64,000 nucleotides of DNA. It comes from Alteromonadales bacterium alter-6D02 (GTDB taxonomy: Bacteria; Pseudomonadota; Gammaproteobacteria; Enterobacterales; Psychrobiaceae). Shown here one piece after another: positions 48,474-52,925 of the stretch. Position numbers and translations under genes: made by a program. Below the pieces are notes generated by a model that was not told the origin of the DNA, made no database searches, and saw only the letters and a list, made by a program, of their open reading frames with translations. The stretch lies in the NCBI GenBank assembly GCA_002835545.1, contig PIZK01000004.1, forward strand, positions 1 to 64,000, written 5' to 3'. Within the stretch, counting starts at the first letter, position 1. Every line of letters starts with the position of its first letter.

Positions 48474-49088
48474 TTAATTAATGTAATCATCAAATTCTAA
48501 GGTAATGACTTCCTTAAGCCGTGATTTTGCCCGAAATAAAACGCGATCAAATTGGGACGAAGTTAAATTAAGTTGATCACAAACCGTTTTCTTTTCTTGT
48601 TGATGTAAAAAATAGCTAGTTAAGAGTTGCCTATCGCGCTCGGTAGGCAATGAATCAATAGCATTGGTTAATAATCGCGTATTATCATCAGTCACCACGC
48701 AATCAAAACCACTCATGCCATTATCTTGTAGACTATCAATACTCTCATTATCTTCATTATATTGGACAATTGTCCTATATGTTATTGCCTGATAAATTAA
48801 GTGAGAAGCTGTCGATGTAATGTAATATTTCAATGCCTCTGGTTTTAATAATTTACCCTGCCGTAGCTTAATAATCACTTGCGTAAAGGTTTCTTGGAAG
48901 ATATCTAGACTGATTTGTTCTTCATTTAACTTAGAATGAATAAACGACATTAAATAAGCTGAAAAGCTATTGATTAGCTCACACTCGGCATGGCGATCAT
49001 TCAATTTTATCCGCTCAGCAAGCGAAGCCATTAAAGCAATGTCATTAACATTAACGTAATTGTGTGAAATATAATACTCTGAATTCAT
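48474..49088 (-). CDS. ECF-like sigma factor
   Basis: 204 aa from the ATG at 49088, which has AAGGA seven bases before it; an upstream ATG at 49136 lacks one. Region 2 is recognisable in SLDIFQETFTQVIIKLRQGK near 62-81, and region 4 in LPTERDRQLLTSYFLHQQ with the helix-turn-helix SSQFDRVLFRAKSRLKE near 150-195. No adjacent anti-sigma gene is visible. It is divergent from the two secreted DUF3718-like genes, and the 18-bp repeated box lies in the shared region about 93 bp upstream. Confidence 0.78.
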   Translation of the reverse strand: MNSEYYISHNYVNVNDIALMASLAERIKLNDRHAECELINSFSAYLMSFIHSKLNEEQISLDIFQETFTQVIIKLRQGKLLKPEALKYYITSTASHLIYQAITYRTIVQYNEDNESIDSLQDNGMSGFDCVVTDDNTRLLTNAIDSLPTERDRQLLTSYFLHQQEKKTVCDQLNLTSSQFDRVLFRAKSRLKEVITLEFDDYIN

Positions 49089-49180
49089 AAGATATCCTTG
49101 CCACCTAGTCACGTCTACACATGATCTTGATATCACTATCTCATTTAAATTTAGCCTATGTATGTCAGTTTTTCTTTCTG

Positions 49181-49198
49181 ATGTTACAAATCATGTCA
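49181..49198. repeat. 18-bp box, copy 1
   Basis: ATGTTACAAATCATGTCA, identical to 49974-49991. It lies about 282 bp upstream of the first DUF3718-like ATG and about 93 bp upstream of the sigma factor start on the other strand, so it could act on either gene. Confidence 0.85.
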
Positions 49199-49320
49199 TG
49201 ACATATGATCATTACCGCCACAAAACTCAATCAGTAAATAAGATAATCTTCATCTATTCAATCAATTAGTTTTTTTGTTTAAATAAACAGCAATATTTAA
49301 GCATCATTATAAAAAATAAA

Positions 49321-49378
49321 ATCTTACATTTGGCATAAAAATATAGTGAGAGGAAATCACAGTACAGTGCACTTATTA
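49321..49378 (+). repeat. 58-bp upstream conserved block, copy 1
   Basis: Aligns without gaps to 50116-50173 with 41 of 58 bases identical by hand count. Best conserved are TTACATTTrGCA at the left, TGAGAG...AAA near the middle, and CACAGTA and CACTTATTA on the right. A promoter or leader function is likely; it begins 142 bp before the ATG. Confidence 0.75.
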
Positions 49379-49462
49379 GTAGACTGAGCAAGGACACTAT
49401 GGATAGCCATATCTAAAATGTTGTAGGTTCAACGTCAGAAATAAATAATCTGGAGAAATACA

Positions 49463-49831
49463 ATGGGCATTCTAAAATTAGCAATAATAACCAGTTTGAC
49501 TCTCTCTTCTATGGCAGTAACAGCGACTACATATAAATTTATCCCAGGCAATAATGAAGTTGGCACAAAGCTGTGTGTTGAAGCAGGAAGTAATGATCTG
49601 AAAGGCTATAGAAGCGAGATGCGTAGCCATCGTCTCAATAATAGACGTATAGCCAATAATCTTACTTGTAATGGCGAAAATGTCGCAAGTTTCGCAGAGC
49701 GATACAACGCGCTAAAAACCGCCGCACATATCAATAAATTCCGCAAAAATAGAGTGACAATTACTGATCTTGCAGCGAATAAAAGTCCACAAACCTCTGA
49801 CACTGAAGTTATCATTGTCACAGTGAATTAA
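49463..49831 (+). CDS. exported DUF3718-like protein, paralogue 1
   Basis: 122 aa. Signal peptide (residues 1-20, ending VTAT) is followed by TTYKFIPGNNEVGTKLCVEA, a domain I assign to DUF3718, known mainly in Alteromonadales and of unknown function. The mature part has two cysteines (KLCVEA and LTCNGE) shared with the paralogue 417 bp downstream, about 55 percent identical by eye. Clear SD GGAG before the ATG. A hairpin terminator follows at 49863-49892, so it is transcribed separately from the next gene. Confidence 0.8.
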   Translation: MGILKLAIITSLTLSSMAVTATTYKFIPGNNEVGTKLCVEAGSNDLKGYRSEMRSHRLNNRRIANNLTCNGENVASFAERYNALKTAAHINKFRKNRVTITDLAANKSPQTSDTEVIIVTVN

Positions 49832-49862
49832 TATTCAAAAAAGTGATTTATATAAAAGCCCG

Positions 49863-49892
49863 AACGGCCCTTCATTTATGGGCCGTTTTTTA
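49863..49892 (+). terminator. intrinsic terminator after paralogue 1
   Basis: Stem AACGGCCC/GGGCCGTT with a 9-nt loop followed by TTTTATTT, 32 bp after the stop codon. Confidence 0.88.
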
Positions 49893-49973
49893 TTTAAGAG
49901 GTATTTAAAAATTAGCTAGCAAAGTCCCTAGCCTTCCAAAAACTCCCATTTAACCATTAATATTTTAAAGCCA

Positions 49974-49991
49974 ATGTTACAAATCATGTCA
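49974..49991. repeat. 18-bp box, copy 2
   Basis: ATGTTACAAATCATGTCA, identical to copy 1 at 49181-49198, about 274 bp upstream of the second DUF3718-like ATG. The palindromic extension seen beside copy 1 is absent. Confidence 0.85.
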
Positions 49992-50115
49992 GACTTGCAG
50001 TCGATAGCAGGTTTATTAAAGCCTAGCATCACTATAAAACCACCCAATGATCACCAACTTACAACGACTAACAAGTCACAATAGGTACATTTAAATTCAC
50101 CTAAGCATTCATAAA

Positions 50116-50173
50116 ATTTTACATTTAGCACTCATTATTACTGAGAGAAAAACACAGTAACAACCACTTATTA
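50116..50173 (+). repeat. 58-bp upstream conserved block, copy 2
   Basis: Gap-free counterpart of 49321-49378 (41 of 58 identical). It begins 132 bp before the ATG of paralogue 2, 10 bp closer than in copy 1. Confidence 0.75.
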
Positions 50174-50247
50174 AGTACTGTTAAAAAATGAACATATTGT
50201 GGCCAGGATTTGGCTAACTTAATCATCAAATGTATTTGGAGAAATAT

Positions 50248-50616
50248 ATGAAAATCTTAAATATTGCATTGGCTTCAGCTATTATCGCTACATCTTACAA
50301 CGCAGCAGCAACTACCTACCAATTTATCCCTGGGAATGATGCACCAGGAACAAAGTTATGCGTTGAAGCCGTAAGTGGTGATCTGAGAGGTTACAGAGAA
50401 AAGATCAAGGAGTATCATTTAAAAGACAAAACTGTAGCCAATAAGTTAGAATGTAATGGTGAGAATATAGCCAATTTTGCTGCGCGATATGATGCAATGA
50501 ATACTGCTGTTTATATTAATAAATACCGCAAGAATAGAGTATCGATTACGGATTTAGCTGCATTAAATGCTAAGAAAAAAGATTTAAAAGATACTGTAAT
50601 TATTACCATCAATTAA
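50248..50616 (+). CDS. exported DUF3718-like protein, paralogue 2
   Basis: 122 aa from ATG 50248, whose GGAG-AAATAT ribosome site mirrors that of paralogue 1; a frame-internal ATG six codons earlier is unlikely. A signal peptide of about 20 residues ends at AAAT, and the mature TTYQFIPGNDAPGTKLCVEA matches paralogue 1. The two cysteines are conserved, as is the motif CNGENIANFAARYDA. The C-terminus VIITIN is nearly shared. A tandem duplication with its regulatory region is the simplest explanation. It converges on znuD. Confidence 0.8.
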   Translation: MKILNIALASAIIATSYNAAATTYQFIPGNDAPGTKLCVEAVSGDLRGYREKIKEYHLKDKTVANKLECNGENIANFAARYDAMNTAVYINKYRKNRVSITDLAALNAKKKDLKDTVIITIN

Positions 50617-50686: not shown

Positions 50687-52900
50687 TTAGAAGCTCCAGC
50701 GCAAACCAACTTTAGCACTGACGCCAGGCAATGGTGCTTGCTCCTTTAAGAATGAACTATGCACATTGGCTTTTTCATCAAAAATATTACTAAGCTTTAA
50801 GTAATACTTTAATTGACCTGTCACCAACGCCTGATGCTTATAAATACTTAGATCTACTAGTGTATATGCATCTGTAGGCTCTTCTAAATGAGCAACATCA
50901 GACTGTTTCGCATAATAGCTGGCTAACAAGTTAAAGTGCCAATCTTGATGTTCATAATTCATCTGCGTTGCAAAGCGCATCGGTGGAATACGTGGTAAAT
51001 ACTCCCCTGACTCTTCTAACTCCGCAGCAGTGTAATCGATAAAACTGGTCAGGGTTAAATGATCATTATGGAAGTAACTTAACTGTAATTCACCACCCTT
51101 TAACACTACATTATCCTGCTGATATTCATATATCGGCAAACCATGATCATTATGTAATGGTGAAAGTGCCTGATATGCAAAATTATCAACCTCACTATAA
51201 AATAGTGACGCAGCTATAACGACTTTATCACCGTCATAACGCCAGCCTAAGTCAATCGTCGTAGCGTCTTCAGTCTCAAGCTTATTATAATCAGAGCTTG
51301 GTATTAGCAAAGCATCATCATGCTCTGACGCCATATTAAAATATACGCCAACATCAAAAGAAGCTGTACCTAAGTGCTCCCCAAACGAAAATAATTCATT
51401 TGCACTAAGTGCCCGCTGGCTATGACTTAGATTTGTTAATAATTGGTGCTGTTTATTCACCTGCCAGCTCATACCTGCTGAGAAACTTGCTGGTGTGAAT
51501 TGTACATTATCTACTGCACCAGCTAACTCTAGATCAGGGGTGATATCAACCTGCTCAATTCGTGCACCAACATGTAGTTCAACCTGATCAATTTGACGTT
51601 TTTGAGTTAAGAACAATGCCCAAGATTCCGTTATTGTGCTTGGCGAATTAGCTTCTTCTCCCACAGGATTCGTTTCATTGTTTAAGTAATGAATACCTGC
51701 AATACCTTCCCATTCTGGAAGCCATTGATGCGTTAACTGTAATTTAGCTTCACTATTTAAGGTGTCGATTTGTGTTGCCACATGCCCGTGTTCAATTTCT
51801 TGTAATTGATAATCCGTATAGGCTGCTTTTAACGAGAGTTCACTGACATTTGTAAATGGATTAAACCATTGGCTTGAAAACTGCACTCGATATTGCTCAG
51901 TTTTCGCGATAGGCAAGGCTTCGTCATGTTCATGCTCGTGCTCATCATGCTCGTGCTCATCATGCTCATGCTCATCATGCTCATCATGCTCATCATGCTC
52001 ATGACCAATTAAGCCATACTCTGATTTAATGAAACCGACCGAAATACCTGTCACTTGCTTATCAGTAATGTAACTAGTACCAAAGGTAAGGCCAGAGCTT
52101 TTAGCTTGGCTATTTTCTATATGGTCTAACTTGGTATTTTTATCTTCATCATGGCCGTGGTCATCATGCCCGTGCTCTTCGTGGTCATCATGCTCGTGTT
52201 CTTCGTGGTCATCATGCTCATGCTCTTCGTGAAGGTAAAATGATGGGGTTTGCATTTCTTGAGCATCACGAACGAAGCCGTCGACATACAAACCAATATC
52301 ACCTTGAGCAGTAAGCACTTTAAAAGCTGCATTCTTTTCTTTATTCGCAGAATTAAAGCTAGCACTTAATTCAGTGCTTGTTTCATCTACAAGTGCTTGC
52401 GGAATACGTTGGTCGACAACATTAACAACACCACCAATGGCACCACTACCATGAAGTAGTGTTGCAGGCCCTCTTAATACTTCAATCTCTTGCGCAGTAC
52501 TAGACTCACTACTGACTTGATGATCAGGCGCACTACGTGACGCATCTCCCCCATCTAAACCGTTTTGCATGACCTTAATACGAGGGCCATCTAGGCCTCG
52601 GATAACAGGACTAGAAGACGATGGACCAAAATAACTTGAATGTACACCAGGAATGGTTTTTAGTGTTTCACCCAAGCTGCTTGCTTGCATAATATCAAGT
52701 TGCTCGCGCTCCACTAATGTTGAGGAAATCAAAGAGTCTAAGTCACTACGCAAAAGATGCGCTTTGGATTTCACTTCAATGGTTTCAATTTGCTCTGCAG
52801 ACTTTTTTTTGTCTGAAGTGTTCGCCTCAGCAGCAACACCCGCAGAAACAAAATAACCACCAGCCAACATACCGGTTAATACTAAACTCTTTTTAAACAT
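50687..52900 (-). CDS. znuD: TonB-dependent receptor, ZnuD-like with His-rich loops
   Basis: 737 aa from ATG 52900 (MFKKSLVLTG), chosen because upstream codons lie in the operator region. Signal peptide about 1-23; IETIEVKSKAH is TonB-box-like; plug near 50-165 (IPGVHSSYFG, VLRGPATLLHGSGAIGGV); barrel ending AKVGLRWSF. Two long insertions are dominated by His, Asp and Glu (near residues 221-250 and 300-332), as in ZnuD zinc receptors of Neisseria and Acinetobacter. Zinc or a similar metal is the likely cargo, supported by Zur-like boxes upstream. It is divergent from sthA. Confidence 0.85.
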   Translation of the reverse strand: MFKKSLVLTGMLAGGYFVSAGVAAEANTSDKKKSAEQIETIEVKSKAHLLRSDLDSLISSTLVEREQLDIMQASSLGETLKTIPGVHSSYFGPSSSSPVIRGLDGPRIKVMQNGLDGGDASRSAPDHQVSSESSTAQEIEVLRGPATLLHGSGAIGGVVNVVDQRIPQALVDETSTELSASFNSANKEKNAAFKVLTAQGDIGLYVDGFVRDAQEMQTPSFYLHEEHEHDDHEEHEHDDHEEHGHDDHGHDEDKNTKLDHIENSQAKSSGLTFGTSYITDKQVTGISVGFIKSEYGLIGHEHDEHDEHDEHEHDEHEHDEHEHEHDEALPIAKTEQYRVQFSSQWFNPFTNVSELSLKAAYTDYQLQEIEHGHVATQIDTLNSEAKLQLTHQWLPEWEGIAGIHYLNNETNPVGEEANSPSTITESWALFLTQKRQIDQVELHVGARIEQVDITPDLELAGAVDNVQFTPASFSAGMSWQVNKQHQLLTNLSHSQRALSANELFSFGEHLGTASFDVGVYFNMASEHDDALLIPSSDYNKLETEDATTIDLGWRYDGDKVVIAASLFYSEVDNFAYQALSPLHNDHGLPIYEYQQDNVVLKGGELQLSYFHNDHLTLTSFIDYTAAELEESGEYLPRIPPMRFATQMNYEHQDWHFNLLASYYAKQSDVAHLEEPTDAYTLVDLSIYKHQALVTGQLKYYLKLSNIFDEKANVHSSFLKEQAPLPGVSAKVGLRWSF
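51922..52006. repeat. low-complexity His/Asp/Glu coding tract 1
   Basis: Runs of GCTCAT/GCTCGTG on the plus strand code on the minus strand for a loop of His-Asp-Glu repeats in the ZnuD-like barrel. The unit is irregular. Confidence 0.8.
52156..52227. repeat. 24-bp tandem repeat coding His/Glu-rich loop
   Basis: Three adjacent 24-bp units (52156-52179, 52180-52203, 52204-52227) differing by a few bases, each encoding an eight-residue EEHEHDDH-type unit of the receptor. Copy number could vary without breaking the frame because the unit is a multiple of three. Confidence 0.85.
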
Positions 52901-52911
52901 CTCATACACCA

Positions 52912-52925
52912 AACGTTATAACATT
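52912..52925. promoter_or_regulatory. Zur-like palindrome just before znuD
   Basis: AACGTTATAACATT, an almost perfect palindrome around GTTATAAC, 12 bp upstream of the znuD ATG. It resembles half of a Zur operator and may be a second site. Confidence 0.4.

Follow-up and report, generated by a model that had tools for sequence, protein, structure and literature searches.

The stretch of DNA analysed here, 64,000 nucleotides long and referred to below as the window, encodes an ECF sigma factor divergently from two predicted exported proteins of the DUF3718 family. Judging from sequence, we consider it likely that this sigma factor is an orphan with anti-sigma-controlled relatives, that it reads promoters of the type TGAGAG-N17-CACTWA and that its regulon consists essentially of the two exported neighbours. 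The observations behind this reading are the synteny, the common descent and the joint absence or decay of the genes, the motif itself, its sharing with related loci and its rarity in the genome. In the mechanism that we propose, the sigma factor would be akin to a subfamily mostly encoded beside a membrane anti-sigma-like protein and, standing alone in this genus, would direct RNA polymerase to the motif before the two divergent DUF3718 genes (one in the other genomes), so that essentially two exported DUF3718 proteins would make up the regulon.

A sigma factor divergent from two DUF3718 genes

The features of the region are the following:

48474..49088, minus strand: orphan ECF-type sigma factor, 204 aa from ATG 49088 (start in the ORF list, GTG 49136)
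49181-49198, plus strand: 18-bp box ATGTTACAAATCATGTCA of paralogue 1, starting 282 bp before the DUF3718 ATG and 92 bp from the sigma ATG
49324..49331, plus strand: TTACATTT element of paralogue 1, starting about 22-23 bp before the proposed -35
49347..49375, plus strand: proposed sigma promoter of paralogue 1 (TGAGAG 49347-49352, N17, CACTTA 49370-49375)
49463..49831, plus strand: DUF3718 paralogue 1, 122 aa, PF12514 at 56.1 bits, signal-peptide-like N-terminal stretch (by eye), two cysteines
49862..49888, plus strand: hairpin with T-run, probable terminator after paralogue 1 (-15.9 kcal/mol, z -3.6)
49974-49991, plus strand: 18-bp box ATGTTACAAATCATGTCA of paralogue 2, starting 274 bp before its ATG
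50119..50126, plus strand: TTACATTT element of paralogue 2
50142..50170, plus strand: proposed sigma promoter of paralogue 2 (TGAGAG 50142-50147, N17, CACTTA 50165-50170)
50248..50616, plus strand: DUF3718 paralogue 2, 122 aa, PF12514 at 54 bits (start in the ORF list, 50230)

The sigma protein passes the TIGR02937 model with 48.1 bits (cut-off 42.9); the Pfam sigma domains score below threshold (Sigma70_r2 16.6, cut-off 24; r4_2 12.8, cut-off 25.7). A profile built from the protein and six relatives matched the Bacillus-type SigW structure of PDB entry 5wuq over profile positions 19-189 (E 1.4e-9). The TIGR02937 score together with this match marks the protein as a member of the sigma-70 superfamily whose regions 2 and 4 are of the ECF type. 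By eye, region 2.2 of the protein encoded at 48474-49088 and of its aligned relatives seems not to have the acidic residue with which the usual DAED motif begins, a motif described in PMC8999054. The start at ATG 49088 was preferred by eye and has AAGGA upstream.

An anti-sigma factor encoded alongside its cognate ECF sigma factor is typical, though not universal. No anti-sigma gene was seen adjoining the paired sigma gene in any of the four genomes that carry the pair, and a 12-row alignment of putative anti-sigma proteins retrieved no relative from G000, the genome of the window, or from G006 (80% complete) at E 0.001. Such relatives occur once each in G003, G005 and G007, where they adjoin the other sigma gene of these genomes. 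The neighbouring DUF4240 protein is unlikely to be the missing anti-sigma factor, since it occurs in 9/9 genomes of the genus, including those without the sigma factor.

Both window proteins score above the PF12514 (DUF3718) cut-off of 22.5 bits. They are 51% identical (62/122), their N-termini are signal-peptide-like by eye, and each has a cysteine pair that is invariant across 24 aligned DUF3718 proteins; we infer a periplasmic or secreted location and a single disulfide. For paralogue 2, ATG 50248 was preferred by eye, with GGAG upstream. The hairpin after paralogue 1 was missed by one scan with a loop limit of 8 (the loop here is 9); it makes each paralogue likely a separate unit, paralogue 2 probably with a promoter of its own. 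An earlier note, made from the letters alone, had described an ECF-like sigma factor without an adjoining anti-sigma gene, divergent from a pair of exported paralogues. The TIGR02937 score, the four genomes and the PF12514 matches bear out this description, and the genes lie where it placed them; of its further details the two cysteines per protein hold, and the identity of about 55% is to be lowered to the 51% given above.

A 24-row DUF3718 profile weakly matched designed ankyrins among known structures (best E 7.5e-4) and Bd3460 of Bdellovibrio, reportedly a periplasmic inhibitor, at E 0.27. No ankyrin family of Pfam was listed at E up to 1 for the two window proteins and four other DUF3718 proteins, and an AlphaFold model from three rows was unusable (mean pLDDT 45). 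The resemblance to ankyrins, seen at sequence level, is a lead only. Bd3460, an ankyrin self-protection protein, is the subject of PMC4686830. As to an anti-phage role, PADLOC gave no match for the sigma factor, either DUF3718 protein or DUF4240. A tree of the 24 proteins has two well separated branches (100/100), dividing L103, L114, L119, L045 and L053 from L025, L109 and others: a longer type, marked by an additional DG.TI.DWA..NGH-like segment, and a shorter type to which the window genes belong. In a separate genome (G311:C1:1611404-1631088), five DUF3718 matches lie within 20 kb, four of them equal in score, which suggests recent amplification.

A candidate sigma promoter before the DUF3718 genes

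At their targets, ECF sigma factors recognise -35/-10 promoters with fixed spacing. The upstream regions of the paralogues share, besides the 18-bp box, a second block of 63 nt (49316-49378 and 50111-50173; 73% identical). In the earlier note this block had been given as 58 bp, slightly too short, and correctly as common to both regions; the regulatory architecture described there, an exact box followed by the second block at near-equal distances, recurs in our alignment. It is the second block, and not the box, that probably carries the sigma promoter, TGAGAG-N17-CACTWA. We found the motif by eye on comparing the DUF3718 upstream regions with two sigma/putative anti-sigma/CHAT operons of G005 and G007, in both of which it precedes the sigma gene. 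TTACATTT is present in 5/5 upstream regions of the pair, 129-141 bp before the DUF3718 ATG. Three of the five DUF3718 promoters deviate from the motif by two mismatches each (TACTTT in G006 and G007, TGTAAG in G005).

In G000 (4.0 Mb; the window lies on contig C34), the exact motif TGAGAG-N17-CACTWA occurs three times, at the two DUF3718 promoters and within an ORF at C4:118543, and the stricter pattern STGAGAG-N17-YACTWW is confined to the two DUF3718 promoters, its reversed control giving 0 hits. Allowing TGAGAG-N17-CACTWA up to one mismatch gives 33 hits in all against 27 in the control, that is, about equally many. We inspected 30 of these 33 places (3 exact, 27 with one mismatch; the other three came without a locus) and found three intergenic ones besides the DUF3718 promoters. 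A single one of them, C22:23085 (TTAGAG), is correctly oriented before an ORF, by eye a lipoprotein-like metallo-hydrolase; the match is weak. Across the genus the strict pattern and its reversed control have 12 hits each, so that the motif itself is not enriched and only its positions are telling; 6/12 of the genus-wide hits are neither DUF3718 nor sigma-operon promoters. One strict hit, G003:C130:2693, precedes a lipoprotein-like ORF.

Two further DUF3718 genes of G000 have in their 500 bp upstream neither the box nor TTACATTT, and the motif only with three mismatches. Among nine DUF3718 genes checked in other genomes, one (L103, first copy) has two-mismatch motifs upstream.

The motif at related sigma loci

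The motif was then sought at loci that had played no role in its discovery. With up to two mismatches it is present at 10/11 sigma/putative anti-sigma loci of the order, 50-124 bp before the start of the putative anti-sigma gene, in a scan that began 400 bp upstream of this start and ended 50 bp beyond it; the single miss is L060, from G003, and L100, whose anti-sigma gene was not recognised, was left out. All ten have a gap of 17, although 16-18 was permitted. Eight loci were fetched from outside the order, four of them without a recognised anti-sigma gene; of the remaining four, two carry the motif (L185 and L189; 46 and 87 bp upstream of the putative anti-sigma gene) and L187 and L188 do not. 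We use the label 'putative anti-sigma' on the strength of position, size and the presence of a hydrophobic segment; a Pfam scan of a single such protein (L058:7369-7995) gave no family match. Genes further downstream vary: CHAT proteins in the genus, peroxidase-like proteins (by eye) in several other loci.

The fetched loci, many of the motif-test loci among them, total 316,740 bases, in which the exact motif occurs six times at gap 17 and not at all at gaps 14-16 and 18-20; with one mismatch the counts are six at gap 17 against 1 to 4 at each other gap, and with two mismatches 41 against 10 to 30. Among the 12 motif-bearing loci outside the genus (L086-L094, L096, L185 and L189), eight have the motif within the 3' end of the sigma ORF, where coding conservation could contribute, and at four it is intergenic (L094, L096, L185 and L189). 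The sigma factor of the window is the presumed reader of the motif.

The 18-bp box

The copies of ATGTTACAAATCATGTCA before the two paralogues are an exact match, as the earlier note had it. With up to three mismatches the window holds two matches (0.08 expected) and the whole of G000 eleven, namely the two exact paralogue boxes and nine with three mismatches (reversed control, 7). The genome scan for further copies, a check suggested earlier, has therefore returned the two paralogue boxes as the only exact ones. The box core ATGTTACAA is kept in 5/5 upstream regions of the pair. A shared 9-mer arose among four upstream regions in 0/2000 shuffles and among three in 19/2000, shuffles that ignore common descent. 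Across the genus the pattern ATGTTACAANNNRTKTC has six hits, five of them at DUF3718 promoters and all in pair-bearing genomes (4/9), against two in the reversed control; an extra copy in G005 (C4:98333) has no evident target. A spaced pattern, TGTTAC...TGTNA, has no match in the window. Judged by their consensus sequences, Pho, OmpR, CRP, FNR or TyrR sites did not seem to fit all five copies.

Since no copy of the strict motif precedes the paired sigma gene, the sigma factor is presumably switched on by something else. We infer that control acts on its transcription or its stability, with the 18-bp box as a candidate operator; PMC8999054 names transcription, conformational change, proteolysis, phosphorylation and extensions as modes of ECF control without an anti-sigma factor. 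An elaboration of our preferred reading, which we hold as a tentative one with somewhat less than an even chance, makes the box the operator of a separate regulator that acts on both the sigma gene and the DUF3718 genes, while the sigma factor reads the second block, in the manner of a coherent feed-forward circuit. It fits with the lack of a strict motif before the sigma gene and with the position of the box 74-92 bp before the sigma ATG (92, 77, 77 and 74 bp in the four genomes) and 274-282 bp upstream of the ATG of each paired DUF3718 gene, as well as with its retention before paralogue 2, which has no sigma gene alongside. Its regulator is hypothetical, and the G005 copy just mentioned counts against it.

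Conservation and loss of the pair

The divergent sigma/DUF3718 pair lies in the same block in 4/9 genomes of the genus (G000, G005, G006 and G007), with aceA-lysR-DUF4240 on one side and a TonB receptor and sthA on the other (aceA, the TonB receptor and sthA were named by eye). Only G000 among the four has the second DUF3718 paralogue. The paired sigma factors form one clade (93/90, the remnant included), and so do the paired DUF3718 proteins with weaker support (85/61); these values are below the star level of the tool. By eye, the TonB-receptor-like protein at 50687-52912 contains long stretches rich in His, Asp and Glu (EHEHDDHEEHEHDD) that resemble those of metal uptake receptors.

An intact pair was not found in the other 5/9 genomes. 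G008 keeps the flanks, with a truncated sigma gene that has an in-frame stop and no DUF3718 gene adjoining. In G002, DUF4240 lies directly beside the TonB receptor, and remnants of both pair genes are found on another contig, divergent and 3.7 kb apart; its contig C246 also has a short DUF3718 frame, with no sigma relative in the 6 kb around. Neither the paired sigma gene nor the paired DUF3718 gene was found in G001, G003 and G004; G003 has the other sigma type, and G001 and G003 have the other DUF3718 type. As G001 and G002 are incomplete (82% and 88%) and a single deletion could remove both neighbours, the joint loss is support rather than proof.

Between G005 and G007 the paired sigma factors are 40% identical, the sigma factors of the anti-sigma operon 70% and its putative anti-sigma proteins 65%; identity is 68% between the paired DUF3718 proteins and rises to 83% in the other DUF3718, 85% in DUF4240 and 90% in the TonB receptor. 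The pair evolves fast, the sigma factor most of all, for which relaxed constraint and changing partners are both possible. The sigma factor of the window is 30-32% identical to those of the other three genomes, which could mean altered specificity. That the paired sigma factor is merely decaying under relaxed constraint in this genus, after loss of its anti-sigma factor, we regard as unlikely: the 40% against 70% identity and the outright decay of the sigma gene in G008 and G002 are what one would then expect, but the four frames are intact (184-204 aa), the residues DR...RAK.RL near the C-terminus are invariant in all four, and the promoter elements have been retained.

Origin of the shared upstream elements

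Tandem duplicates that are still 51% identical may be expected to share some upstream sequence, and the region has eight sigma-70-like sites, close to the mean of 7.6 in shuffled sequence. The box and the block might accordingly be leftovers of the duplication that accompany housekeeping promoters, the sigma factor working elsewhere. We give this little credence: outside box and block the upstream regions are only 39% identical (108/274), a background at which an 18-base identical run has a chance of about 1e-5; the same elements recur at near-equal distances in G005, G006 and G007; and the motif is found again at related sigma loci that have no DUF3718 gene. It is just as improbable that the box, although the best conserved single element (18/18 between the paralogues, with a 9-mer in 5/5 upstream regions) and confined as ATGTTACAANNNRTKTC to genomes that keep the pair, is itself the sigma promoter and TGAGAG...CACTWA the site of a different factor, given that it has no second conserved hexamer at promoter spacing (alignment by eye), would imply a leader of more than 240 nt and, in the form TGTTACA, was absent from the 140-300 bases upstream of 11 related sigma genes, whereas TGAGAG-N17-CACTWA stands at most related loci.

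Distribution beyond the genus

DUF3718 was found in 107/394 genomes of the order (E 1e-5) and the sigma subfamily in 17/394 (E 1e-15), seven of the 17 belonging to the genus, two of these as remnants; in a sample of the class, 6/369 genomes, G000 included, have relatives of the paired sigma factor (E 1e-15). No DUF3718 gene was seen within about 1.5 kb on either side of 11 sigma loci from other families of the order, nor within about 1.5 kb of eight sigma loci from other orders of the class (five genomes). A contig search with the paired-sigma alignment gave at least five loci; among the matches listed one was close, a MAG labelled Gammaproteobacteria bacterium MedPE, with a stretch identical to that of G006.

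The small sigma-controlled regulon envisaged in the earlier note gains support, as far as sequence can lend it, from the motif at related loci, the synteny and the joint absence or decay. The same note had counted DUF3718 genes commonly occurring without the sigma factor as evidence against such a regulon, and family-wide this is what the counts of 107 and 17 genomes reveal. Because DUF3718 is common without the sigma factor and two further copies in G000 lack the elements, the link is one that holds for one DUF3718 branch in one genus.

Comparison with known systems

Our reading would provide a first way into the regulation of the exported DUF3718 family, under whose name no open-licence paper was found, and a testable promoter for a sigma subfamily. 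A sigma factor with a near-minimal regulon would also be a case for studying anti-sigma loss and the shrinkage of ECF systems. One may go further, in what is a doubtful extrapolation, and picture a minimal sigma module that has lost its anti-sigma factor and narrowed its target to the divergent exported neighbour, a pair kept or lost as a unit and unusually fast-evolving, in which the exported member may act in the periplasm as a short, ankyrin-like binder of a fast-changing partner, comparable in kind to Bd3460.

The window proteins resemble the DUF3718 (PF12514) family in their above-cut-off scores and invariant cysteine pair; in contrast to the window, DUF3718 mostly occurs in genomes that have no member of this sigma subfamily. 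PMC8999054 covers ECF sigma factors that have no cognate anti-sigma factor, and the sigma factor of the window is like them in being a single ECF gene for which no anti-sigma gene was found. It differs from those described there in that no known regulator gene was identified alongside, and in a predicted regulon of two paralogous exported proteins. Also close to it are the ECF/putative anti-sigma/CHAT operons of G005:C2 and G007:C42 (CHAT assigned by Pfam), with which it shares sequence similarity and the promoter motif. PMC8999054 mentions CHAT proteins in connection with group ECF54, where no anti-sigma factor accompanies them. Compared with the CHAT operons of the genus, the sigma factor of the window stands without an anti-sigma gene, without a CHAT gene and without the longer C-terminal tail of most such sigma factors.
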